Source: Candidatus Levyibacteriota bacterium
Lineage (GTDB): Bacteria; Patescibacteriota; Microgenomatia; Levybacterales; UBA12049
Reading direction: 5' to 3'
Length of the DNA: 39,253 nt
Assembly: GCA_016204465.1 (NCBI GenBank)
Contig: JACQKQ010000002.1
Coordinates: 1 to 39,253 of the forward strand
In this document: piece by piece, positions 19,598-37,976 of the stretch
How positions within the stretch are numbered: the stretch's first letter is position 1
How the letters are laid out: every line of letters starts with the position of its first letter
Notes under the pieces: generated by a model
Told to the model about the DNA's origin: nothing
Seen by the model: the letters and a program-made list of their open reading frames with translations, nothing else
Databases searched by the model: none
Program-made: the position numbers and the translations under genes

Positions 19598-20389
19598 ATG
19601 GAGCCGCATGTAATTTACGAGGATGACAATCTACTTGTTATCAATAAACCATCTGGTATGACGGTTAATCGTGCCGATACGACAAGGGGAGAAGAGACGG
19701 TGCAGGAATGGGCAGAAGACTATTTAAAAATCCGAAATCCGAAATCCGAAGCACGAAACAAATCTAAAATTACAAATTCAAATGACCAAAATAGTTTCGA
19801 ATTTCGAGATTCGAATTTCGAATTTTCCCGCAGGGCGGGGATCGTGCATCGGCTTGATAAGGAGACGTCGGGGATACTCCTCATCGCAAAAACACCCGAG
19901 GCGTTTGCCAATTTGCAGACGCAATTTAAAGAGCGAAAAGTGAAAAAGACATACATTGCGCTTGTGCATGGAACACCAATTGAACAAGAAGGGCAGATAC
20001 GGGTGCCGGTTGGCAGACTGCCTTGGAATCGGAAGCAATTTGGTGTTGTCGCAGGCGGCCGTGATGCGGTGACGAGATTTAGAAGAATTAGGAATTATGA
20101 ATTAGGAATTATGAATAAAAAAGAAAAATTGACGCTTGTAGAACTCTATCCGGAGACGGGAAGAACTCATCAAATCAGAGTTCACTTAAAATATATCGGC
20201 CACCCGATTGTCAGTGACGAGTTGTACGCCGGCCGAAAAACAGCACGGGCAGACCGAAAAATGCTTCCCCGCCTTTTTTTGCACGCGGCAAAAATTTCAT
20301 TTTTCCACCCAAAAAACGGAGAGGTGATAACGCTTAAAAGTCCGTTGCCATCAGAACTGCTGGGGTTTCTTGCTTTGTTGCGGGGTTGA
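19598..20389 (+). CDS. RluA/RluD-family pseudouridine synthase with two in-frame repeat insertions
   Basis: VINKPSGMTVNRAD, AGIVHRLDKETSGILLIAKT, GRTHQIRVHLKYIGHPIVSD. Confidence 0.93.
   Translation: MEPHVIYEDDNLLVINKPSGMTVNRADTTRGEETVQEWAEDYLKIRNPKSEARNKSKITNSNDQNSFEFRDSNFEFSRRAGIVHRLDKETSGILLIAKTPEAFANLQTQFKERKVKKTYIALVHGTPIEQEGQIRVPVGRLPWNRKQFGVVAGGRDAVTRFRRIRNYELGIMNKKEKLTLVELYPETGRTHQIRVHLKYIGHPIVSDELYAGRKTARADRKMLPRLFLHAAKISFFHPKNGEVITLKSPLPSELLGFLALLRG
19726..19826. repeat. dispersed repeat inserted in the RluA-family gene (AAATCCGAAATCCGAAGCACGAAACAAAT...)
   Basis: encodes IRNPKSEARNKSKITNSNDQNSFEFRDSNFEF, absent from canonical RluA proteins; ends in TTTCGAATTTCGAGATTCGAATTTCGAA. 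Confidence 0.85.
20085..20116. repeat. 14-bp tandem repeat (GAATTAGGAATTAT x2) inside the RluA-family gene
   Basis: encodes RNYELGIMN. Confidence 0.85.
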
Positions 20390-20402
20390 TTTATTTATTG
20401 GG

Positions 20403-20434
20403 TTATTGGTAGTATTGGTAGTATTGGTAGTATT
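20403..20434. repeat. 9-bp tandem repeat (TTGGTAGTA, ~3.3 copies)
   Basis: ttattggtagtattggtagtattggtagtatttt. Confidence 0.9.
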
Positions 20435-20448
20435 TTCAAGGTGAATAT

Positions 20449-20589
20449 ATGGGAAGCTTTGGAGGATTTTACAAAGGCGAAAAAAGGAAAGCGAAAAAAG
20501 GAAAAGAAAAAGGGACAGTGGTAGGTTATTCTAATAAGCCGACTTTTACTCTTCCTGAAATTATTGTAAAAAAGCGAAAAGACTATTAA
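20449..20589 (+). CDS. small basic protein (46 aa), not in the supplied ORF track
   Basis: MGSFGGFYKGEKRKAKKGKEKGTVVGYSNKPTFTLPEIIVKKRKDY*; SD-like AAGGTGA upstream; resembles a short conserved CPR protein as I recall it. Confidence 0.65.
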   Translation: MGSFGGFYKGEKRKAKKGKEKGTVVGYSNKPTFTLPEIIVKKRKDY

Positions 20590-20600
20590 AGATATCCCAC

Positions 20601-21437
20601 ATGACAAGTACTCGCAGGCCAAAAAGTCTTGAGAATGGGAAAAGCTTGAAATTGCTCCTTTTCTTTTGCGTTGGAATAGTTATTATTATTGGAGTTTCTC
20701 TATTTGTAAAAATCGCTAATATTGCTTCACTTAGCTTGTTTGACGGAAAACATCGCTTAACTATAGTAATTGATACAGCGCCTGCTTACATTCTCTCATT
20801 TTCGCCAGAAGATCGCTCAATTTTAGTTGCAAGCATAACCTCAAAAAGGCAAATAGAGGCAAAAAAAATCGGCCAAAAACTTAAGATTCCCGTTGACGCG
20901 ACAGTATCGTACCGCTTTAAGCAAGGAGAAAATATTGATGCACAGCTTTTTTTAATGCTTACTCGGTATGCCTCCCTTAAGACAGAACTTACTGTTTTTG
21001 ATATTATTAGGCTGTGGTGGTTTGCCAAGTCCGCTCCCAAACACGCAGTGATAAGAACAGATATTATAGTACCTGGGGTAGAAGAAAACCATATAAACGA
21101 ACCGCAATATCTTACAGAGAAAACTTCCCGCCTATTTACAGATGCAGCTTTGGCCGAGGAGAAGTTGAGTGTTGAGGTAGTCAACGCAACAGGGGAATCA
21201 GGTTTTGGCGCGCGGCTTGCAAAATTTGTTTCGCACATGGGAGGAAATGTAATTCTTGTGACAACTGCGGATACTATTGCAAGCACGTCAGGTATTGCCT
21301 ATTATGGAGAAAAAAGTTACACGCTTTCTCGGTTTGAGAAGATACTATCAGTTTCAAGCAGCCAATTGCATATTCCGGGAATTGCCGATATTGTTATAAC
21401 ACTTGGGAGAGATAGCGTAGGAAAGGATATATTCTAA
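20601..21437 (+). CDS. LytR C-terminal domain protein, membrane anchored
   Basis: N-terminal TM; LSVEVVNATGESGFGARLAKFVSHMGGNVILV...IAYYG. Confidence 0.75.
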   Translation: MTSTRRPKSLENGKSLKLLLFFCVGIVIIIGVSLFVKIANIASLSLFDGKHRLTIVIDTAPAYILSFSPEDRSILVASITSKRQIEAKKIGQKLKIPVDATVSYRFKQGENIDAQLFLMLTRYASLKTELTVFDIIRLWWFAKSAPKHAVIRTDIIVPGVEENHINEPQYLTEKTSRLFTDAALAEEKLSVEVVNATGESGFGARLAKFVSHMGGNVILVTTADTIASTSGIAYYGEKSYTLSRFEKILSVSSSQLHIPGIADIVITLGRDSVGKDIF

Positions 21438-21451
21438 AGGATAGAAAACAC

Positions 21452-21655
21452 ATGGATATCCCATTTATTATTGCTGTTCTTTTGGTTATTTCGTTTCTTT
21501 GGGCGATTTTGAGTTTGCACGAACTGCAAAAAGATGAACGGCTGCACAAAAAAGTAAAAAAGGAGCTTTTAGCAAATAGGATTATTTTTCAAAGTGAAGC
21601 TGATCATTCAGCTTCTAGAACTTCTTCTCCAGCTGAATCCGATTCGCCATTATAG
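21452..21655 (+). CDS. small single-TM protein
   Basis: MDIPFIIAVLLVISFLWAILSLHELQK...; 3' end overlaps the convergent TPR gene. Confidence 0.5.
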   Translation: MDIPFIIAVLLVISFLWAILSLHELQKDERLHKKVKKELLANRIIFQSEADHSASRTSSPAESDSPL

Positions 21656-22302
21656 AAGTTTTTGGGCATTGTGTGTTTAACTTTTTCTCCTGAGACAAAT
21701 GATGGTTGGTTCTTAAATCGAGCGGAACGTTTTATTTCGCGGATAAAGATGACTACTCGGCGATGCTCAACGGATTTAATATATGCCTCATAGTCATTGC
21801 CTCCATTGATAAATTTAATAAGCCTTTTTCCGATGTCGTCTGGAAACATACCGACATACAAGCCTTTTTCGTCGCAGACAAAGATTCTTAATCGTTTAAT
21901 GCGCAGGTAAAGCGGTTCTGCTGCCATGAGGGTGCTAATGATTTTAGGTTCTGCAATGTTTACGAGTTCAACAATTTTCGTTTTTCCGCTTTCTTCCAAA
22001 AAGAGCGTATCTTTAGTATTGACAATGTGAAATGCTTGCCGGTAGCCGTTTGCCTTGGGTACGCTTGAGAGGCGCTTGAGGTTTTTTAATGCAATAGGAT
22101 TTTGCGAGTCAAGTTTTAATACCTTAATATATGTACTTTTTGCTTCCTTTATTTTGCCACAGACTGTAAAAGCAAATGCTAGGCGATTGAGCGCTTCGAT
22201 GTCACTTGGGTTTTCTTTTAATAACTGTCTATTGAGCAAAATTGCGCTGTTCCAGTTTCCTGTAAGGGCAGTTTGGATAGCCTGGTCTTTAAGCGGTGTC
22301 AC
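21604..22302 (-). CDS. TPR-repeat protein
   Basis: ALTGNWNSAILLNRQLLKENPSDIEALNRLAFAFTVCGKIKEAKSTYIKVLKLDSQNPIALKNL. Confidence 0.8.
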   Translation of the reverse strand: MTPLKDQAIQTALTGNWNSAILLNRQLLKENPSDIEALNRLAFAFTVCGKIKEAKSTYIKVLKLDSQNPIALKNLKRLSSVPKANGYRQAFHIVNTKDTLFLEESGKTKIVELVNIAEPKIISTLMAAEPLYLRIKRLRIFVCDEKGLYVGMFPDDIGKRLIKFINGGNDYEAYIKSVEHRRVVIFIREIKRSARFKNQPSFVSGEKVKHTMPKNFYNGESDSAGEEVLEAE

Positions 22303-22336
22303 AATTTGAGATTGGTCTAAATTCTACAAGGCTTTA

Positions 22337-22365
22337 TTGCAAAAGTCAAGGGATAGGAATATAAT
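22337..22365 (+). promoter_or_regulatory. yebC promoter
   Basis: TTGCAA-N17-TATAAT. Confidence 0.7.
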
Positions 22366-22368
22366 TAG

Positions 22369-22435
22369 GTACCACGAGTACCACAGGGAGAACAAAAGCT
22401 CGTGATACGCGTGGTACTTTTGATACCCGTGGTAC
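22369..22435. repeat. GTAYCACG-type inverted repeat in the yebC 5' leader
   Basis: GTACCACGAGTACCACAGGGAG...CTCGTGATACGCGTGGTACTTTTGATACCCGTGGTAC followed by T-run. Confidence 0.85.
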
Positions 22436-22444
22436 TTTTTTCTT

Positions 22445-23182
22445 ATGTCTGGTCATTCAAAGTGGGCGCAGATTAAACGTCAAAAAGGAGTAGCAGATCT
22501 TAGGCGCGGCCAAACATTTACAAAAATTGCAAACACTATTACTATAGCTGTGAGAGATGGGGGTGGTATTTCTGATCCAAATCAAAACTTTCGGCTGCGC
22601 CTTGCAATAGAAAAAGCACGAGAAGTTAACATGCCAAAAGAAAATGTATCTCGTGCAATTGACCGTGCCCTGGGAAAAGGGGAGAAGGACAAGGAGGTTA
22701 CGCAGGTTAATTACGAAGGGATTGGTCCACAAGGCGGCGCTATTATAGTGGAGGCAGTTACCGATAACAAACAGCGAAGCCAAAACGAGATTCGAAACAT
22801 CATGGAGAAGTATGGTATTACAATGGTTGCCCCAGGCAGTACTGCATACCTGTTTGCAAAACGTGGGGTAATTACTATAAAACGAAACGGCAAGTCTATT
22901 GATGATTTATTTACAATAGCTGAGGAGGCTGGCGGGCAGGACATCGAAGAAGCAGGGGATGATCTGCTAATTTATACACAGCCGCATGACCTTGCAAAAG
23001 TTCGGCAAAGATTGCAAGAGAGTATTACTGTTGCGGATACAAAGCTTTCCCTTATTCCGACAATAAATGTTGTGCTAAAAGAAACAGACGCGGCGCGCAT
23101 GCTTTTGGCACTGCGCCTTCTTGAAAATCTAGACGATGTGCAAGAAGTTTATACCAATATTATATTCCCCGATACAGATTAA
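22445..23182 (+). CDS. yebC: YebC/PmpR-family transcriptional regulator
   Basis: MSGHSKWAQIKRQKGVADLRRGQTFTKIANTI... Confidence 0.97.
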   Translation: MSGHSKWAQIKRQKGVADLRRGQTFTKIANTITIAVRDGGGISDPNQNFRLRLAIEKAREVNMPKENVSRAIDRALGKGEKDKEVTQVNYEGIGPQGGAIIVEAVTDNKQRSQNEIRNIMEKYGITMVAPGSTAYLFAKRGVITIKRNGKSIDDLFTIAEEAGGQDIEEAGDDLLIYTQPHDLAKVRQRLQESITVADTKLSLIPTINVVLKETDAARMLLALRLLENLDDVQEVYTNIIFPDTD

Positions 23183-23219
23183 GAACAAAAAATATACTCA
23201 CTATTTTAAATAGAGTAAC

Positions 23220-24080
23220 ATGCAGGTTAAAACTACCATTTCCAGATTTTTTAAGAACAATCTTCGCCGAAGAGCAGAAGTAAGAAGTGGATTTGCATGG
23301 GTAATATCCTTCTTGCAGGGAAAAAGACAGCGATATATTATTGCAGTTTGCTTTTTAACCGCTTTGCTTTATTTCTCTTCTTGGTTTCGATTGGGTCAGT
23401 CCGGTTTTATTGCATCTTTTTTCTTAGGGCTTGCCACAGGCGCGCTCTTTTTTATCGCTAATTTTCAGGATATCCGCGGCAGTTTTTCAATTTCACTTTT
23501 TGTCTTGCCATTTTTCTACAGTTTTTCTTGCGGAATTTTTTACTCCTTGGTACCCGATAGAATGCTTACAAGAATTATTATGACATCGTTTTATGGGCTT
23601 GGATTGTACTCCCTTTTTTTGAGCCAAAATATCTTTACAGTTGCTTCCATTCGGACGATTGCGCTTTTGGCATCGGCTAAAACCGTATCGCTTGTGCTGA
23701 CTATTATTTCGTACTTTTTTCTCATTAACGTAACGTTTTCTTTACATACCCAACTTATTACATCGGGTGCGCTAGTTTTTGCTGCGTCGTTTTTTTTGAT
23801 ACATCACTCCTTGTGGGTTAGAACGCTTAATCCATTACCAATAGCAAACGTTCTTTGGACTACTACGTTAGCATCTGTTATGCTTGAGATCGGGCTTATT
23901 ATGTGGTTTTGGCCAAGTTCTCCCACTATTGTTGCTCTATTTTTAACCGGTATTTTTTATACGATTGTTGGTCTTACAGGCGTTTGGTTTGAGAAACGGC
24001 TCTTCCGATCGGTGCTTTGGGAATATATTTGGGTTTCCATCACAGTTTTTTTTATTTTACTCCTTTTTACCTCTTGGTAG
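23220..24080 (+). CDS. hypothetical multi-pass membrane protein
   Basis: complete ORF, many hydrophobic segments. Confidence 0.65.
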   Translation: MQVKTTISRFFKNNLRRRAEVRSGFAWVISFLQGKRQRYIIAVCFLTALLYFSSWFRLGQSGFIASFFLGLATGALFFIANFQDIRGSFSISLFVLPFFYSFSCGIFYSLVPDRMLTRIIMTSFYGLGLYSLFLSQNIFTVASIRTIALLASAKTVSLVLTIISYFFLINVTFSLHTQLITSGALVFAASFFLIHHSLWVRTLNPLPIANVLWTTTLASVMLEIGLIMWFWPSSPTIVALFLTGIFYTIVGLTGVWFEKRLFRSVLWEYIWVSITVFFILLLFTSW

Positions 24081-24099
24081 GAGCAAAGACAAGAGAAGG

Positions 24100-25318
24100 G
24101 GAGAGAGGTGTGATTATTACTCACCAGACGGTGCGGGGATATACTTTGATATAGTAACAAATGTAAGAAATATTATAGGACTTATTCGCAAAGCTAGCTG
24201 TTTGCTGCTAAATGTGGATAACTCTAATTTTCACAAGGGTTGAAGCTGAATTTTCACAGCCCTGAAGAGAATGAAGGGTAAGCTCCGTTGTTTGGTTGCT
24301 AGTCTCATTGGTTTTTAAGTCTTTAGCAAACGACCAAAAGGTAAAGTCTAATAGCCTCCATCGCGTCCTGCTCGGGAATAGTGTTGCTAATTATTGCATC
24401 TGACTGAAAAAAATACGAATAACGGTTACGCCGTAAGCAACTGTGAGTTGAGGCTGAAAAAATACGTTTAGATTGATTTGATAGTCTAAACTTAACATAA
24501 TTAGGCATTAGGCTTCTTGAAAGTGCACCGTTATAAATTCCGCCGTCCGCCAACTGGCGTAGCGGATTGAAGCTAAAATAAGTAAATTAGATTGATTTTA
24601 CGACCTAAACGAATGATTCGTCTTACTTGTGGGCGAGCGCCTTCTCCAAAACAATAAGTGGTAAAAAAATTATATGGGAATTGCGTATATATGTATGCTA
24701 CAAAAAGTCATGTGCGGCGGGTTTTACCCAAAGAGCAGACTTCTCCCACAAAATCCCATTAAGATATAAAAAACAACAAGGAAAACCCAGAGAAGTAAAA
24801 ATGATTACGTCGTACAATAATACTTTTACGACGTCGGGTGGCCAAACTCTAGGGGGAGGGGTTCTTTTATGCGGCCTTCTGCGTCAGCATTAATGAAAAA
24901 ATTTTAAATTCCTAGGAACTTCAGCTACTCTAAGGGTTTTGATACCCGATTCTTGGATAATACGGCTTGTCCCCTACTATGGGATTTTATCTGTAACCCT
25001 ACGGAAGAATTTCGTGTCACAGGATTGTACTTCGTGAACCAGCGTGATATCTTGCGTTTCTGCGTGCGACATAGCATTTCGTTTGCTGACCCATGTTTAC
25101 GAACGCAGGTTCAAATTTTCCTCTGTCATTTCGAAATAAAAACCCGGCCCAGGGTTATGTTTCTAGTCCTGCGTTGCTGATCCGCCCTCAATAATTTAAT
25201 GTTTCCTTTAACAGCAAGCGCGACAGGAGAGCTGCGGCCGCGACAGGTACAGTAAGCTGCAATCCTTGTTCTCTTGCTGAGGAAACTCGGTGCGCAGCCC
25301 GGCCTAGGTTTGTCAAGT
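24100..25318. other. ~1.2 kb block with no convincing CDS; possible structured noncoding RNA(s) or decayed region
   Basis: only short ORFs without recognisable families; several hairpins (GTTTAGA...TCTAAAC; ACGTCGTA...TACGACGT) and an imperfect ~45-nt direct repeat. Confidence 0.4.
25134..25156 (-). terminator. putative intrinsic terminator for the transaldolase transcript
   Basis: minus strand AACCC-TGGGCC-GGGTTTTTATTT. Confidence 0.55.
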
Positions 25319-26242
25319 TCACACAAGAATTGATTTCCAATCCTCTGCAAAACGGAGAATGCCTTTATCGGTAAGCGGATGGCGGATGTTAAGTTTGTCA
25401 GTCGTAAGCAGGTGGAAGAAGGCATCCTCTGTTGCTGTTGGGAGAAGATGGTGCGGGATTTCCCATTTTGGCAGATCGGATAAGGAAGCTGCGTACTGTT
25501 GGGTATCGAGTTTTTCGCGCTCTTCAGATTTAAGCGTAAACCATTCTTTATATACTGTTGCCGGTGCGGTAAGGAGTTCAACTTCTGCATTTATGCCTCG
25601 CTTTATATGCGATGTACTTCTTACTGATGCTTCAAGCATCCAAACCTTTCGGCCCTGCGGGAATGTGAAGTTAAGCTTCTGTTTCATAACCATGGATTGC
25701 TCAACCAGCTCCATACCATCAACTCCGCTATCATCGAGCCTGCCAACAAACGGCGATACAAACGGCGGCCATCCGCTGAATGAATTAATAGGACCGTAAG
25801 TTTGCTGGATAATTTCTTCATGCAGACAAATCGCAAAAATCTGTTCAAGCGAAAACACAAGCGTGTTGTTGGTTAAGATGCCGTCTTTTCGTAAAACGCT
25901 TCGTGCCTTAAAGCCTTCAATATTAGTTGGAATCTTTACGACAATTCGCTTGTCCCAGGCCGCAAAGTCTCTTCCTTGCGAAATCATCTCTTTGGCTGTT
26001 GTTATTTCGTCTGCATACACTTCAACAGAAACGGCGCCGGGAACAATTTTTAGGATTTCAAGTGCAATTTCTTTCTGAAGCGCAATAGCCTCATCCTGGG
26101 TAATCTTTTTACTCGATATTGTCTTTGCAATCAGCGTGGGATTAGTTGTTGAACCCCACAATTCTTGGCCTTTTTGCTTGGCAAGGCTTGAAATCTCGCG
26201 GTACTCGTCTGGATCGCCGCTGTCAAGAAGAAATCGCGTCAC
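25319..26242 (-). CDS. transaldolase family protein
   Basis: FLLDSGDPDEYREI, GSTTNPTLI, VVKIPTNIEG, NNTLVFSLEQ, SPFVGRLDD; preferred GTG start at 26242 (TTGATT-N17-TATAAT-N7-GTG). Confidence 0.85.
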   Translation of the reverse strand: MTRFLLDSGDPDEYREISSLAKQKGQELWGSTTNPTLIAKTISSKKITQDEAIALQKEIALEILKIVPGAVSVEVYADEITTAKEMISQGRDFAAWDKRIVVKIPTNIEGFKARSVLRKDGILTNNTLVFSLEQIFAICLHEEIIQQTYGPINSFSGWPPFVSPFVGRLDDSGVDGMELVEQSMVMKQKLNFTFPQGRKVWMLEASVRSTSHIKRGINAEVELLTAPATVYKEWFTLKSEEREKLDTQQYAASLSDLPKWEIPHHLLPTATEDAFFHLLTTDKLNIRHPLTDKGILRFAEDWKSILV

Positions 26243-26321
26243 GTGTTTTATTATATTGCTATTAACTTTTATAATCAACAAGAAAGATGTATAATCTTTC
26301 TGCCTGCTGCTTTAAGAAGAT

Positions 26322-27761
26322 ATGGTAGCTCTAGAACGTCGTTTTCTACCTAGAATGCGCCTTAGGGAGCCGGTTCCCGCTTCTGCCTCTCCCGATTTAT
26401 CAAACGTCTACCATCACCCAGTATTTGATCATAATATAACATCAGGGACAGTTACGACAAAAGGTCGCCCAAGCAGAGTTTGGACTCTTGATAGCAGGCT
26501 GCTTGCAGTTTTAGAGGAAAATGTGAATCGTGTTGTTGCTGTAGGAGATCTTAAAATAAGAACTGGCCGGTTAGGTTCGCCGCGACCTCCAAAAGAAGGC
26601 ATTCATAGACTCCGTATGGCAATAGGAGATCTGGAGAACCCAAAAGTTATAGTTACAGTTCCTAGGCAAGGATACATGCTTGTTGATGAGGAGATGCCCA
26701 AACACGATATATACGTTTATCCTGGAATTAATGGTTTTCCCGGTTATGTGCACGATCCAAATCGCAGCACTGTAGAGATAGAAGGAAAAACCAATAATCT
26801 TAATCCTACGGAGAACAGATTACTTTGCTTACTTGAGAAAACACCGAATAGACTGGTTTCTGATTCCAGTATTTTAAAAAATGTATTTGGTTTAGATGGC
26901 ACAGCAGATAGATTCGATCTGGGTTTAATTAAAGTTCATATGAGTCATCTACGAGCAAAGATTAGACCTAGTCATATAAATGGTTCTTTTGGAGAAGTTA
27001 TAACAAGAATAAAGGAGAGTGGTTATCGGCTGAATGACCCAAGCCGCTTAAAAGACAAGTCTAGCTCTGCTGAACTACCGGAGTGGGTTTATGTGCATCC
27101 GGCTTGGACGCATTATCCCGAGCGAGATAGCGTTGAGGTTAAGGGAGAAAACATTTTTCTAACACCTAGAGAAAATGCGCTGCTTTACATACTTGAAGAG
27201 AGCCCAAATAGATTAGTTACAAAGAAAGTAATTGGAGAACGACTCATCGAACTTGGGTTAGATATATCTACTGATATAAAGACATATATTTATCATTTGC
27301 GTAGGAAGTTAGAACCAGGTAATGTAAAGGGTAAGCCCCAATTTCTTTTAGGCGTAAAAGGAGGGTTTGTGCTTGTTGATCCAACGAAGCCGAAAGAGGA
27401 ACCGAAGTGGTCTTTTGTACACCCGGGGTTAGACGGGTGGCCTGGATATAAGTATGATTCTAATAGCCGCATTGTTTCGGTAGAAGGCATAGAAACTTGT
27501 TTAACGCCTATGCAGAATCTTATTTTGACTAGACTTCAAGGGTTACCCGGTATAGTTATAGCGCACGATTCTTTCCTTGATGATGTACTGGATACTTTTG
27601 GTAGAAGAGATGGTGTTGGGATATTAAAGCCATATATAGCTCGATTAAACGCAATACTAAATCCAGAGCATAAATTCGGACAACCACGCTTTATTATTTC
27701 GATTCCTGGTGTTGGTTACGTGCTTCGTAGCGCTCCCAAGAGTTACCAGGCGAGATATTGA
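26322..27761 (+). CDS. tandem four-unit winged-helix (PhoB/OmpR Trans_reg_C-like) protein without receiver domain
   Basis: four units each ending in a PhoB-like helix plus wing hairpin (IHRLRMAIGD..VPRQGYMLVD; VHMSHLRAKIRP..IKESGYRLND; IYHLRRKLEP..VKGGFVLVD; IARLNAILNP..IPGVGYVLRS); units 2-4 start with a Y/W-x-Y/F-V-[H/Y]P motif. Confidence 0.8.
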   Translation: MVALERRFLPRMRLREPVPASASPDLSNVYHHPVFDHNITSGTVTTKGRPSRVWTLDSRLLAVLEENVNRVVAVGDLKIRTGRLGSPRPPKEGIHRLRMAIGDLENPKVIVTVPRQGYMLVDEEMPKHDIYVYPGINGFPGYVHDPNRSTVEIEGKTNNLNPTENRLLCLLEKTPNRLVSDSSILKNVFGLDGTADRFDLGLIKVHMSHLRAKIRPSHINGSFGEVITRIKESGYRLNDPSRLKDKSSSAELPEWVYVHPAWTHYPERDSVEVKGENIFLTPRENALLYILEESPNRLVTKKVIGERLIELGLDISTDIKTYIYHLRRKLEPGNVKGKPQFLLGVKGGFVLVDPTKPKEEPKWSFVHPGLDGWPGYKYDSNSRIVSVEGIETCLTPMQNLILTRLQGLPGIVIAHDSFLDDVLDTFGRRDGVGILKPYIARLNAILNPEHKFGQPRFIISIPGVGYVLRSAPKSYQARY

Positions 27762-27830
27762 CGTCGGAAAAGAAGTGTGATTAACTGATTATGCGACGAA
27801 AAAATCTTTTTTATCTTGCAAGGCCTCGCC

Positions 27831-27859
27831 TTGCGAAGCTGGAGATTACGTCGTAGAAT
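27831..27859 (+). promoter_or_regulatory. recombinase gene promoter, leaderless architecture
   Basis: TTGCGA-N17-TAGAAT, ATG 6 nt downstream. Confidence 0.6.
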
Positions 27860-27865
27860 ATTTAT

Positions 27866-28801
27866 ATGATCACTTCCCTGCCCGAACTTATAAACCAGTT
27901 TTTGGAATACTTAGAAATCGAGCGAAACTGCTCAAAGCTTACCATCCGTGACTACAGGCACTACCTTACTACTTTTGCCAAGTGGTATTCCCCTGCTGTT
28001 GGAAAATCAATCGAAAATTTAGACATAGCGGCTGTCAGGAAGTACCGCGTGTATTTAGCCAATCGGGCCGACGAGAAAGGGATGACTCTAAAGCGCATTA
28101 CCCAAAATTACTACGTTATTGCACTGCGCTCGTTCCTTAGATTCTTGCTCAAAAACGACTATAAAACGCTTGAGCCGTCAAAAATCGATTTGCCAAAAGC
28201 CGAAAGCCGCTCGCTTAAGTTTTTAGAGCGCGAGCAAATCGAGCGGCTTGTTACGTCGGTTGATACATCCAAAGAAGAAGGAATTAGAGATAGGGCAATT
28301 TTAGAGATGCTCTTTTCAACCGGTCTTCGTGTTTCGGAGCTTGTAAAACTAAACCACGGACAGCTTAACATTGACAGGCGCGAGTTTGGAGTTATTGGTA
28401 AAGGAGGACGGGCAAGAGTTGTTTTTATTTCCGAGCGGGCGGCTTTGTGGCTTAAGAAATATTTAAGCGAGCGAAAGGATCAGTTTAAACCCTTATTCAT
28501 TCGTTATTCAGGAGCAGTTTTGGAGGAAAACAACGGAGAGAAAATGAGGCTAACTGCCAGAAGCGTTGAGCGGATTGTGAAAAAGTATGTGCGGCGTGCT
28601 CGCCTACCGGTTGATGCAACGGTACATACACTTCGCCATTCGTTCGCTACAGATCTTCTTTCAAACGGCGCAGATTTGCGCTCGGTCCAAGAAATGCTGG
28701 GACACAAGAACATCGCCACCACGCAAATCTACACGCACATTACAAACCGCCAACTGCGTGAGGTACACAAGGCATTTCATAGCGGCAATAAAAAGAATTA
28801 A
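27866..28801 (+). CDS. XerC/D-like tyrosine recombinase
   Basis: MLFSTGLRVSELVKL, HTLRHSFATDLLSNGADLRSVQEMLGHKNIATTQIYTH. Confidence 0.93.
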   Translation: MITSLPELINQFLEYLEIERNCSKLTIRDYRHYLTTFAKWYSPAVGKSIENLDIAAVRKYRVYLANRADEKGMTLKRITQNYYVIALRSFLRFLLKNDYKTLEPSKIDLPKAESRSLKFLEREQIERLVTSVDTSKEEGIRDRAILEMLFSTGLRVSELVKLNHGQLNIDRREFGVIGKGGRARVVFISERAALWLKKYLSERKDQFKPLFIRYSGAVLEENNGEKMRLTARSVERIVKKYVRRARLPVDATVHTLRHSFATDLLSNGADLRSVQEMLGHKNIATTQIYTHITNRQLREVHKAFHSGNKKN

Positions 28802-28859
28802 ACCGAAGCCTGTTTTAGTAAAAGTTAGCAAGCTACAGATGGAGATTGTCAATAAGCCG

Positions 28860-29606
28860 TTATCTTGTTTCGTAGGAGAGGGTGATGGTTATTTGCACGG
28901 TGTTTTCCCCGGGGGTGATGTTGGTTTCTGTTTTCTGATCTGTTGCCGGCGCACTAAGTTCTAATCCTCGATACAGTAATGGCTCTTGGACAAAACCTTC
29001 TTGCACATCAACGATTCTTCCAAGCCGTAAACCTGCTAAGGATGCCAAGCTTTGCGCTTTTTCTTTGGCAATGTTGATAGCTTCTTTGCGTGCTTGTTCT
29101 TGAAGATTTTTTCGTTCATTATCGTCTAGTGAAAAGGAAATACCGCCAACCATATTTGCGCCGTTTTGCGTAATAAGATCAACCACGGCATTTATTTTGT
29201 CAATCGGTTTTACTTTTACATTTATTTGCTGCGTCACGGTATAGCCGCGAATGGTGTTTCGTCCTGCGTTGTAATCGTAGTCCGGGTATAAGGAGTAGTT
29301 TGTAGTCTTAATATCTTTTTCCGCAATTCCCTGCTTTTTGAGTTCATCAAGTATAGTATTGATTGCAGTATTCACCTGCGTTTGCGCATCGGCGATTCGT
29401 GACGATGTTTTTGTGACTCCGAAAGATAAATCTGCTTGGTTTGGTACGGCAGTTGCTTTGCCCTCGCCTGTTACTTTAAAAAGGTCTGTTTTTGTTGTCT
29501 GTATGCTCGTTACCGAAAACGGGATAGCTCCAAAGAGCTTTGTGTAGAGCAAGAAACCAAGGAAGATAAAAAGAATTGTGAATAAAGGTGTTTTTAACAC
29601 TCCCAT
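28860..29606 (-). CDS. SIMPL (DUF541) domain protein
   Basis: TGEGKATAVPNQADLSFGV, GYTVTQQINVKVKPIDKINAVVD, AREAINIAKEKAQSLASLAGLRLG-like C-terminus. Confidence 0.88.
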   Translation of the reverse strand: MGVLKTPLFTILFIFLGFLLYTKLFGAIPFSVTSIQTTKTDLFKVTGEGKATAVPNQADLSFGVTKTSSRIADAQTQVNTAINTILDELKKQGIAEKDIKTTNYSLYPDYDYNAGRNTIRGYTVTQQINVKVKPIDKINAVVDLITQNGANMVGGISFSLDDNERKNLQEQARKEAINIAKEKAQSLASLAGLRLGRIVDVQEGFVQEPLLYRGLELSAPATDQKTETNITPGENTVQITITLSYETR

Positions 29607-29630
29607 GTACTATTACATTACCATAGATAA

Positions 29631-30706
29631 TTAATCAGCGCAAGGCACGGGGAAAATTATTCGGCCTGATCCCTTAGCAACAGATATACCTTTTCCATCC
29701 TCAAAGACTTTTTTACCGCGCAGTATTACTCTTCTAACCTTGCCCTTTACACGCCAGTTGGCAAATGGCGACCAGCCGCATTTGGTGTAAAGCTTGCGAT
29801 TTTCTATCGTGTATGAAATGCTTTGATCTACTTCGATATGGGTATTTGGGTCGGTTTGGCAGCCAAAAATGCGAGCAGGGTTTGTTACGCAAAGGCGGAC
29901 GATGTCATCAATGTTTAGTCGCTTTTCCCAAACTGCAGTGAGCAGCAAAGGCAATGTTGTTTCAAGACCCGTAACCCCAAAGGTGGTTTCGAGTTTTTCT
30001 TTTCTTGTATGTGGGGCGTGGTCGGATTCGACAACGTCAATTGCTTTAAGATTTTTCCAAAGAAAGTCAACGTCTTTTCTTTTCGCAAGCGGCGGTTTCA
30101 TTTTTCCAAACGGACCTAATACATTCGCGTCATGTTCGGTTAGAAATAAATGGTGCGGGGTAACACCGCAGGAGATTGGGAGTCGACTTTCCTTTTCCCG
30201 TAAAATTAGCGCCAAATCAGCCTGAGTGCTAACGTGGCAAACGTGGACGTTTTGTTTTGTTTCTTTCACAACATCCAAAACACTCCGAAGACTCTCGTTT
30301 TCTGCATGGACAAGGATTGGTAAATGCCGAACAGTTTTACCCCAGGCGCTAAAGATGCTTTTAAGTTTATTTTTGTTAATAAGGAGGTTTCCCGTTGTTT
30401 GATTAAGGTAGAGTTTTAGACCGAACACCTTATCAACGACTTTTGGAAACTCGTTGAGGTTATCCCCCATCGAGCCAAAGTAAAACCCGACATCTGCGAC
30501 AATACTGCCTTTTGCAATTGCAATTTTTTCCTTCAGTAGTTGTTCGGTAGTAATTGCTATTTTATTGTTCGGCATGTCCAAGATTGTAGTAAACCCGCCG
30601 CTTAGGGCAGCAGTTGTGCCAGAGAAAAAGTCTTCTTTGTGAGTTTGCCCCGGATCGCGAAGATGCACATGCGGGTCTATTAATCCCGGCAGTCTAAAAA
30701 GCGCCA
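29631..30706 (-). CDS. pyrC: dihydroorotase
   Basis: GLIDPHVHLRDPGQTHKEDFFSGTTAALSGGFTTILDMPN; ESDHAPHTRKEK; start placed at MALFRLPGLIDPHVH. Confidence 0.92.
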
Positions 30707-33451: not shown

Positions 33452-36400
33452 TCAAGAGCAGTATTCATCCCAGGATTTGATAGCAAGGTCGGAGAGTTTT
33501 TTTGTCGTTATCGCTTTGACAAATAATTTTGCTTTTTGGCGGTTGGTATAAATAGGAATATTGTGGTCTATTGCTGCACGGCGGATGGTGTAGTGATCGG
33601 TTTCGTCTTTAGGGTGGGCTGTTTCTACCAAATTAATTGTCAAATCAATTTTACCTTTTTGAAAGTAATCGAGGACGTTTGGAAACTGGTGCTCAAAGAT
33701 TTTATGCAGTTTTATTGCTTTTACGCCGTTCTCTATTAGAAATTGTGCCGTTTTTTCGGTTGCATAGATTGGGAGTTTAAGTTTTGGCAGCAATTTTGCT
33801 GCCTCTAAAAAACGCTCTTTATTTTCGTTTCCGCCAAGGCTTACAAAAATGCCTTTTTTGGGAATTTTGCCGCCAACTGCCAGCTCGCCTTTTAAGAACG
33901 CTTCTTCCGTGTCTTCTCCAAAACTTGCAACCTCTCCTGTTGAACTCATTTCAACGTGGAGTACCGGGTCGGATCCTGTTAGCCTAGCAAAGGAAAACTG
34001 CGAGACTTTGACGGCTACGAACGGCAATTGCTTCACTACTGCATTGTTCGATTGTTTTCCGAAGAAAGCATCAACTGCGAGTTCGATAAAATCTACACCA
34101 GTAACCTTGGAGATAAACGGAAACGTGCGCGAGGCGCGAAGGTTAATTTCAATCACAGAAACGTTGTCCTCTTTTGCCAAAAATTGGATATTAAAGGGGC
34201 CATTAATGCGAAATTCGTTTGCTAATTTACGGCCAATTTCTTCGATTCTTTTTTTGGTCGCTTCAGTTAGCTTTTGCGGGGGCAAAACAATTGTTGCGTC
34301 GCCTGAATGCACACCTGCGTTTTCTATGTGTTCTGAAATTACTGATGCAACAATTGCGCCGTTTTGCGCAACAGCATCAAGCTCGATTTCTTTTGCTTCT
34401 TCGATAAATTTTGAAATCGTCACCGGATATTCTTTGGAAATATGCGCGACATCTTTAACAAACTCTATTAACTCTTCATAGTTGTGACATACGCGCATCA
34501 TCGTACCAGATAACACATACGACGGCCGTAAAAGAACTGGATACTGCACTTTTTTACAAAACTGCAGAGCTTTTTCTAAATCGGTAAATTTATCCCATGA
34601 TGGTTGCTCAACACCAATCTCATCAAGTAATTTTGAAAACTTATTCCTATCCTCTGCCCTGTCAATGTTAGCTGGATCTGTCCCCAAAATATGCGCGCCG
34701 TAGTCTTTGAGTGCATTTGCCCGATTGTTGGGTGTCTGGCCACCAACCGAAACAATAACGCCAAAAGGATTTTCAAAATCATAAACGTCGGCAATGCGTT
34801 CAAACGTTAGTTCCTCAAAATAAAGACGATCTGAAATATCGTAATCTGTTGAAACAGTTTCTGGGTTGCAGTTGATAATAATTGATTGCTTGCGGTTTTT
34901 TTTTACTTGTTGCACTGTTGCAACACTTGTCCAATCAAACTCAACAGAGGAGCCAATGCGATATGGGCCAGAGCCCAAAACAACAATCCCCTTTTTTCCA
35001 GCTGGTTTTATATCGTTGTGACTGCCATTATAAGTAAGGTAAAGATAGTTGGTTTTTGCGGGAAACTCGCCGCCTAGGGTATCAATCTGAAATACCGATG
35101 GGATAATACCGTAAGACTTTCTTAATTTACGAACTGCAAGCTCTGACTGTCCTGTAAGCACAGCTATTCGTTTGTCCGAACAACCAAGTTGCTTAAGTTG
35201 CAAAAGGGTAGCTTTCGGAATCGTATTGTTCGAGCTTGTCGAGAACGATTTACCAGATGAACTTCTCGATGCGTTTCGCTTACTCGAAGAATATAATCTT
35301 ACTAGTTCATTCTCTTTATCAACAATGTTTTTGATGCGGTGTAAAAACCACGGGTCAATACCTGTTTTTTTGTAGATTTCTTCGATGCTTATCCCTTTCT
35401 TTATTGCATGTGATATTGCAAAAACTCTTTTCGGCGTGGGAGTTGTTGCCGATTGCTCAATTGTTTCATTGTTTTTAAAAAAGACGTTGCTTGTTACTCC
35501 CTCTATTTTTATATCAAGCATACGGATTGCTTTTTGCAGGGCTTCCTCAAATGTCCGGCCAACACCCATGACTTCGCCAACCGATTTCATACTCGTGCCA
35601 ATGCGCTCGTTGGCGCCTTTAAACTTTTCGATATCCCACCTAGGAATTTTCACAACTATATAATCAAGCGCGGGTTCAAAACACGACTGCGTTATGCGGG
35701 TAACTTTATTTTTAATTTCGGTAAGGTTTTTGCCTATGGCGAGTTTTGCTGCAACATAAGCTAGAGGATAGCCTGTTGCTTTTGAGGCAAGAGCCGAGCT
35801 TCGCGAAAGCCGAGCATTCAACTCGATAACGAAATAATCAAGAGTACCACGGGTATCAAGGGTATCACGGGTACCACGGGGAGAGGGATCGTTTTTTTCT
35901 TCCCCTGTGATACTCGTGGTACTTGTGGTACTCGTGATACTTTTCGAATGGGGGTTTAGGGCAAATTGGACGTTACACTCTCCAACAATCTTAAGACTCC
36001 GTACGATCTTTATCGCAACTTGGCGAAGATAGTGGTACTCAAAATTAGTAAGAGTTTGACTTGGAGCAACGACTATTGATTCACCTGTATGGATACCAAG
36101 CGGATCCATATTCTCCATGTTACACACTGTTATACAGTTATCGTCTTTATCTCGAACGACCTCGTACTCAACTTCCTTAAAATGGTGGAGATACTGTTCA
36201 ATCAAAATTTGATTTACAAATGACAAGGCTTTTGTTGCAATCTTTTCAAGCTCCGCTTCGTTTCTTGCAATGCCGCTCCCCTGCCCGCCTAAGGCAAACC
36301 CGGAGCGAACCATTATTGGGTAACCAATGTTTTGCGCAATTTTCTTTGCCCCAAAGACAGTTGTTGCGGTTTTACTTAATGGCGTTGGGATGTCAAGCTT

Positions 36401-36818: not shown

Positions 36819-37976
36819 TTAGGAATAAGGAATTATATTCGTTATTCGTTTGATTTTTTCTAAGAAAAAGTCAAAAATCCACTCCGTGTCGGTTGGACCG
36901 GGGCAGGCTTCGGGGTGGAATTGTACAGACATGATTGGTTTTTTGGTGTGAATAATCCCTTCGTTTGAGCCGTCGTTGGCATTGGTAAACCAAGGTTTGA
37001 ATCCCTGTGGAATTTTATAGACTTCAAACCCATGATTTTGCGTTGTAATGTAGCATCTTTTTGATCCTTCCATAATACACGGTTGATTTTGGCTTCGGTG
37101 GCCATACTTGAGTTTTCGCGTATCGCCTCCGGCTGCAAGCGCGAGTAACTGGTGGCCAAGGCAGACACCTAATATTGGTAAACCTATTTTAAAAGCTTTT
37201 TTTAAAGTCCGAATCGTGACGCCTGCCATTTTTGGATCTCCCGGACCGTTGGAAACGACAAGCGCGTCGAATTCTAATTTGTCATTCCGAACTTGTTTCG
37301 GAATCCCATTTGGATTGAGATTCTGAAACGAGTTCAGCATGACATTCGTGGTATTGGAGAAAGGGTCGAAGTTCCAGGGAATTGTGATCACTTTTACTCC
37401 TCTTTTTACCAACGAGCGAGCGATGTTTTCTTTTGCCCCGCAGTCAATAAGGATAATGCTCTTTTTGCCTCGAAAGGCGTCCCCTTTTGAGGCAAACTTT
37501 TTTTCTTTTACCTTTTTTGTTGATACCTTCGCGACGAGATTTTCTTTGTTTGGATCGTAGAGCGCAACATCTTTATCAATCACAATCTTACCAAGCATGG
37601 TTCCTTTTGTTCGGATTTTTTGTATGAGTAGTCGAGTATCGGATATTGCAAGCGCTGGGATGTTTTCGTCTTTAAGCCACTGACTAAGAGAACGTTTGCT
37701 TTGAAAATGTGACGGTGTGTCGTTATACGTTGAGACAATAATGCCGGACGTTTGGATTTTTTCCGACTCCAAAAATCGTTTATCTGGTACGCCGTAGTTG
37801 CCAATCAAAGGATACGTAAAAATAAGAATCTGGCCTAGGTACGATGGGTCGGTTATGCTCTCCGGATACCCAACCATGCCGGTTGAAAATACCACCTCGC
37901 CGGCTCTACTCTTGGGAGCACCAAAACTGACACCTTCAAATGTCGAACCATCCTCAAAAACTAATTGTCCATGCAT
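36819..37976 (-). CDS. carA: carbamoyl-phosphate synthase small subunit with in-frame repeat insertion
   Basis: FEGVSFGAPKSRAGEVVFSTGMVGYPESITDPSYLGQI, GVCLGHQLLALAAGG, VQFHPEACPGPTDTEWIFDFFL. Confidence 0.96.
   Translation of the reverse strand: MHGQLVFEDGSTFEGVSFGAPKSRAGEVVFSTGMVGYPESITDPSYLGQILIFTYPLIGNYGVPDKRFLESEKIQTSGIIVSTYNDTPSHFQSKRSLSQWLKDENIPALAISDTRLLIQKIRTKGTMLGKIVIDKDVALYDPNKENLVAKVSTKKVKEKKFASKGDAFRGKKSIILIDCGAKENIARSLVKRGVKVITIPWNFDPFSNTTNVMLNSFQNLNPNGIPKQVRNDKLEFDALVVSNGPGDPKMAGVTIRTLKKAFKIGLPILGVCLGHQLLALAAGGDTRKLKYGHRSQNQPCIMEGSKRCYITTQNHGFEVYKIPQGFKPWFTNANDGSNEGIIHTKKPIMSVQFHPEACPGPTDTEWIFDFFLEKIKRITNIIPYS
37281..37343. repeat. 63-nt dispersed repeat with 25-bp imperfect terminal inverted repeats inside carA
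   Basis: GTCATTCCGAACTTGTTTCGGAATC ... GATTCTGAAACGAGTTCAGCATGAC (21/25 arm match); 21 codons = VMLNSFQNLNPNGIPKQVRND. Confidence 0.92.

Follow-up and report, generated by a model that had tools for sequence, protein, structure and literature searches.

The window analysed here, a stretch of 39,253 nucleotides, belongs to an 881 kb genome of 50 contigs whose host is a member of Candidatus Levybacteria (Microgenomates, Patescibacteria). Part of the window is occupied by a gene for an unusual winged-helix protein, which sits between a divergent transaldolase-family gene and a gene for a tyrosine recombinase. The features of this locus are as follows.

24140-24240 and 24567-24612: non-coding blocks conserved across 42 loci, lying upstream of dif
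24807-24834, forward strand: dif-like site, a 28 bp near-palindrome with an 11-6-11 layout (ACGTCGTACAA-TAATAC-TTTTACGACGT), near the left edge of the variable interval
24834 (dif) to 27866 (xer): variable interval
25319-26281, reverse strand: transaldolase-family protein (PF00923, E 1e-36), divergent from the tandem winged-helix gene and 40 bp away from it
26268-26295, forward strand: promoter-like TTTATA-16-TATAAT from a consensus scan, in and beside the 40-bp divergent space
26322-27761, forward strand: tandem winged-helix gene; 479 aa with a predicted pI of 9.4, arranged as four PhoB/OmpR-type winged-helix units lacking a receiver
27788-27797, reverse strand, and 27850-27859, forward strand: half-dif elements, GTCGYANAAT, upstream of xer
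27866-28801, forward strand: Xer-type tyrosine recombinase (PF00589, E 6.7e-43), the next gene downstream

The order of genes around this locus is shared across the Levybacteria, running from a tetratricopeptide-like gene through yebC, a membrane gene and the variable interval to xer, a SIMPL gene and pyrC. Both flanks are conserved, and the content of the dif-xer interval varies in nearly every genome; it may hold GH18-like genes, transaldolase-family genes, other genes or genes of unidentified product, or winged-helix genes (the same interval in L020, L021 and L036-L075). It is possible that this variable spot was made by Xer-mediated or terminus-linked recombination. The Xer protein itself is 71-84% identical to the Xer proteins of the same bacterial family; its named relatives are Candidatus Levybacteria or Levyibacteriota, more distant ones belonging to further Microgenomates groups, among them Gottesmanbacteria and Shapirobacteria, and its matches to the NCBIfam XerD, XerC and XerA models fall below the equivalog cut-offs. 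A second tyrosine recombinase is encoded in the same genome (G000:C39:30824-31294), so the window's Xer need not be the only recombinase of the system. A search of Rfam over positions 20000-30000 returned no match. Elsewhere in the window we observed related GTACCACGGGT repeats before yebC and within carB, and the rluD-like and carA frames have translations that look repetitive. These short repeat-derived stretches, which lie partly in coding frames (22403-22439, 35837-35942, ~19725-19825 and, in carA, ~37250-37345), recall cases of repeat elements that have inserted within genes.

With up to three mismatches allowed, the dif-like site was found in 58 of the 73 genomes of the bacterial family, and the reversed control gave 0 matches. 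It is single-copy in all but two of the matching genomes (G064 and G034, with two each), lies upstream of xer in the same orientation in the fetched loci with xer on the forward strand, and is also present in Gottesmanbacteria and Shapirobacteria. In one genome that is a single contig (G066) the site maps at ~116 degrees relative to dnaA, and some 160-210 kb separate it from the change in GC skew, as computed from evenly spaced stretches. This position is unlike that in E. coli and near the values of 122-144 degrees reported for archaeal dif (PMC5357621). Recombinases linked to their own site are known from streptococci (XerS) and some archaea (XerA) (PMC5357621). The 28-bp site is therefore likely to be dif; the 11-6-11 layout and the linkage to xer make a strong case by sequence and linkage, and the position in G066 makes a weaker one by map.

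Elements resembling half of this site recur immediately upstream of the recombinase gene. Within one mismatch, RYGTCGYANAAT occurs in the 150 bp before xer in 62 of 74 loci, against 1.25 expected. We considered whether GTCGYANAAT could be a general promoter -10 motif and found no support for this: the genome holds 22 copies compared with 15 for the reversed control, and four of the 22 cluster inside the 3.3 kb around dif and xer. As judged from sequence, the half-dif elements suggest that Xer may regulate its own expression. The conserved blocks upstream of dif contain TGATATAGTTTGATATAGT, a DnaA-box-like TGTGGATAA with TTTTCAC, and TTTAGATTGAT..TCTAAAC, the last of which has a diverged second copy at 24448-24491. 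Our full-text literature search returned no open-access paper that combines a dif site, Xer and Patescibacteria.

The tandem winged-helix gene is an unbroken frame of 479 codons, with numerous stops on the opposite strand. Its product had been described in a preliminary description as four tandem PhoB-type units without a receiver, and the present analysis confirmed this. The Pfam family Trans_reg_C (PF00486) matches four stretches of the protein, with a whole-protein E value of 1.4e-28 and a score of 99.2 bits (cut-off 26.2). When each unit is scanned alone the E values are 2.6e-4, 5.8e-10, 2.4e-8 and 3.8e-3 for units 1 to 4, so that units 2 and 3 exceed the Pfam cut-off singly and units 1 and 4 fall below it. 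The coordinates of the units are given below.

26400-26696, forward strand: unit 1, residues 27-125, with recognition-helix region KEGIHRLRMAIG and wing VTVPRQGYMLVDE (family profile 87 bits)
26703-27047, forward strand: unit 2, residues 128-242, with a loop of six residues inserted where the first strand lies (YPGINGFPGYVHDP)
27081-27389, forward strand: unit 3, residues 254-356 (family profile 109 bits)
27405-27740, forward strand: unit 4, residues 362-473, with a loop insert like that of unit 2 (HPGLDGWPGYKYD; family profile 94 bits)

Smith-Waterman comparison of every unit with every other gave z values of 5.1-31.8, beyond every one of 200 shuffles for all pairs. Unit 1 is the most diverged of the four, as had been noticed earlier, and the identity of the other units to unit 2 is 27-40%. 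A family unit profile matches all four units at 87-109 bits, its training set including the protein's own units. Alignments were made at the unit level, MAFFT having slipped between units on the multi-unit proteins. The first 26 residues are without a recognisable fold.

The fold of the units was assessed by structure prediction. The AlphaFold2 model of the full protein has a near-expected order of strands and helices in all four units at a mean pLDDT of 58, and its confidence is useful for units 3 (~70-89) and 4 (mostly 70-80) only; unit 1 appears in it, at low confidence, as a sheet, three helices and a hairpin. Run alone with 14 related units, unit 2 gave a model with a pLDDT of 90.7 and a pTM of 0.85, in which we observed the N-terminal sheet, the three helices including the recognition helix and the C-terminal hairpin that are typical of PhoB. 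The top 50 Foldseek matches in the PDB were all of the PhoB/OmpR type and included DNA complexes of PhoB, PhoP, RpaA, RstA and ToxR. Among the matches to unit 2 were RpaA, PhoP, CovR and PhoB (1gxp), together with RstA (4nhj) at a TMt of 0.83. The winged-helix assignment, made initially from the translation, is thus borne out in the predicted structures as a PhoB/PhoP/RpaA fold.

A motif of the form HPGxxGWPGYxYD, which leads into some of the units, had been suspected of being a small additional module. This proved not to be so. VYVHPAWTHYPERDSVEV aligns onto KLSVDNLELDPESHIVKR of ordinary response-regulator domains from Levybacteria, in register with beta-1 and beta-2, and corresponds to the first two strands of the N-terminal sheet. 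Many units of the family read H-x-x-F-x-Y/F at this position. In units 2 and 4 this position is extended by six residues (GLDGWP and GINGFP among the two), and in the unit-2 model the insert forms a loop between regular strands.

From residue 27 onwards the protein consists of the four effector units and short linkers, as seen by Pfam, the family profile and AlphaFold2. Pfam gave no match to a receiver domain with a phospho-acceptor aspartate, nor to a BTAD domain of the SARP type after a winged helix, and nothing besides PF00486 scored above its cut-off; no sensor part and no transmembrane segment with periplasmic domain of the ToxR/CadC type were recognised in the Pfam, profile and AlphaFold2 results. 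Among the NCBIfam response-regulator equivalogs the best score was 60 bits, to the MtrA model (cut-off 300) and from the effector part alone. A viral or plasmid origin was considered and rejected, as no relative was found among viral contigs or plasmids and the single PHROG match covers the winged-helix part.

What might such a protein do? Response regulators of the ordinary kind rely on phosphorylation of the receiver to join two effector domains head to tail on direct repeats ~11 bp apart. For PhoP, a tandem dimer sits on direct repeats of 7 bp separated by 4 bp and contacts DNA through the effector domain alone, and the authors discuss an extension to trimers and tetramers (PMC4832192). We hypothesise that the covalent chain of four domains imitates, on direct-repeat DNA, a PhoB oligomer already assembled head to tail. 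With four effector domains in one chain cooperativity would be built in, so that phosphorylation would not be needed and the site would be read constitutively; the chain would bind a multi-repeat site at all times, or be controlled by its own abundance. We therefore favour, with a probability of roughly 0.55, an orphan one-component regulator that binds DNA independently of phosphorylation through four fused PhoB/OmpR effector domains. The four PF00486 matches, the PhoB-type structure, the DNA-bound relatives found by Foldseek, the conserved arginine and glycine described below and the predicted pI of 9.4 all speak for a DNA-binding regulator. What the analysis shows directly is the four domains, their fold class, the lack of any recognised receiver or sensor and the position in the genome; DNA binding, cooperativity, constitutive action and local targets are inferences.

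The regulator could repress or activate, most simply at the neighbouring divergent promoters; of the candidate targets, the promoter region between the gene and the transaldolase gene is the simplest, but it shows only a weak periodicity signal. A scan for fourfold repeats with a period of 10-12 bp near the gene, dif and xer gave no repeat that stayed significant once the number of tests was taken into account, which counts against the favoured reading. The best candidate, with a period of 10 at 26260, was equalled in 2 of 30 whole-region shuffles and is made up in part of two TATAAT boxes; a pair of TATAATC copies 20 bp from each other (26270 and 26290) forms a weak candidate periodic site, and the promoter consensus scan overall was not above chance. 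The long direct-repeat target proposed at the outset is plausible by analogy with PhoB and PhoP, and the repeat scan contributes to it one weak candidate.

The core arginine of the recognition helix and a glycine in the wing are conserved in nearly all of the 16 family units. The Leu-Arg core is present in units 1-3, while in unit 4 an asparagine takes the place of the arginine; the wing is variable, and unit 3 is not basic, although the protein as a whole is. Differences among the recognition helices suggest, at the level of sequence, that the units may read different sub-sites or that some may only hold the chain together, and the features of units 3 and 4 imply that not all four need bind DNA. 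The same substitution, the variable wing and the lack of basic character in unit 3 would also fit units that have lost DNA binding altogether and serve as a scaffold for protein interactions. We regard this as very improbable given the Leu-Arg core in three of the units, the basic character of the whole protein and a fold shared with DNA-bound relatives.

Relatives of one to three units occur in a few other Levybacteria, several of them at the same locus, and among the matches listed only the window's genome and one other had chains of three or four units. This second genome (G017; named record Levybacteria RIFCSPHIGHO2_02_FULL_37_13, L082) encodes a three-unit protein of 428 aa and a second array of 2+1 units that is split by an in-frame TAG and reaches up to xer, its last ORF stopping 3 bp before the xer frame opens. 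The TAG lies between units 2 and 3 of this array (L020, 10845-10847) and either separates two genes or reflects a recent nonsense mutation. Two-unit and one-unit proteins are found in G016, a single-unit protein immediately before xer in G040 (L158, identical to L142), and in G073 and G079 xer is preceded by truncated single units. Receiver-less single-unit relatives lie elsewhere in the genome in G064, G160 and G169, and in the latter two, which are other genomes of the class, they adjoin an ndk-like gene. In several relatives a helical-looking N-terminal region precedes the first unit. The unit profile gave no further multi-unit members among the strong matches listed for a sample of 374 genomes of the class and an overlapping one of 380 of the phylum; G017 lay outside the class sample, and the result is not a census. 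A tree of the units was too weakly resolved to tell the order of duplication and species split.

This variation in unit number, from four in the window's genome through three and 2+1 in G017 and 2+1 in G016 to one in G040 and truncated remnants in G073 and G079, together with the differing gene content of the interval, is consistent with a second explanation. The protein may be cargo of a recombination-prone dif-xer spot, a regulator unrelated to Xer whose units are gained and lost by unequal recombination and which is decaying in some lineages. The window's copy is less easily accounted for in this way, since an intact frame of 479 codons and a fold signature kept in all four units despite their low identity argue for selection. 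We consider the cargo explanation possible and clearly less probable than that of a fused regulator.

The position of the gene raised the question of whether it is a partner of Xer. Linkage to xer, noted in the preliminary description, holds in part. Homologues lie between dif and xer in G016, G017 and G040, as in the window, and one-unit remnants precede xer in G073 and G079, and other genes are there in most xer loci of the bacterial family. An accessory or architectural protein bound close to dif or to the xer promoter, where it organises the DNA for recombination or sets the level of Xer, would have a precedent in ArgR and PepA, the accessory DNA-binding proteins at the plasmid Xer site cer (PMC5357621). 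Both the 3-bp spacing in G017 and the conserved blocks and half-sites around dif and the xer promoter would suit such a role. However, dozens of genomes that lack such a protein have dif together with the conserved blocks and the half-sites before xer, and the related single-unit proteins beside the ndk-like gene sit away from this module. Most related genomes do without the tandem gene, of which some keep remnants; the gene is therefore not generally required, which also weighs against the favoured reading. As unrelated genes (GH18-like, transaldolase and others) fill the interval in most genomes, a variable spot fits better than a functional partner. A role at Xer/dif is poorly supported, given that most genomes with the same dif-xer module are without the protein, and we think it unlikely. 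More doubtful still is a specific form of the idea, in which a covalent PhoB-type tetramer reads a long direct-repeat site near dif/xer and regulates Xer/dif in Microgenomates, as a recombination-control factor specific to this lineage, having arisen from an orphan response-regulator effector whose domain was multiplied.

Few DNA-binding modules are as common in bacteria as the PhoB-type effector domain, whose mode of action is usually put down to dimerisation driven by the receiver. A natural fusion of four, with relatives of one to three units in sister genomes, would allow the contribution of the receiver to be tested directly, and would also show how far head-to-tail assembly extends. Separately, the dif-like site, the half-sites at the xer promoter and the variable interval offer an entry to chromosome dimer resolution in Patescibacteria.

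Several known architectures can be compared with the fused regulator that we favour. Widespread in these genomes, at about 1-2 per genome, are proteins of ~440-480 aa in which an NTPase-like part is followed by one C-terminal PhoB-type winged helix (L023-L028 and L033, in G035, G001, G004, G029, G017, G019 and G064). They share with our protein an orphan PhoB-type domain and a similar length, but have a single winged helix and a different architecture. A protein of 450 aa in G008, from the same bacterial family (L022, 4120-5469, reverse strand), has by eye a receiver-like N-terminal region and then two PhoB-type winged helices. It likewise carries more than one such domain per chain, and differs in its receiver-like region, in the scores of its winged helices with the family profile (35-54 bits) and in its location away from the dif-xer locus. 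ToxR, CadC and SARP/AfsR, the first two of which were among the Foldseek matches, likewise have a PhoB-type winged helix without a receiver. These proteins combine one winged helix with a membrane/periplasmic or a BTAD/TPR part, of which no counterpart was recognised in the 479-aa protein. With the OmpR/PhoB response regulators (PhoB, PhoP, RpaA, CovR and YycF/VicR) the effector fold is held in common; in contrast to their one effector domain per chain, the protein described here carries four, and no receiver.
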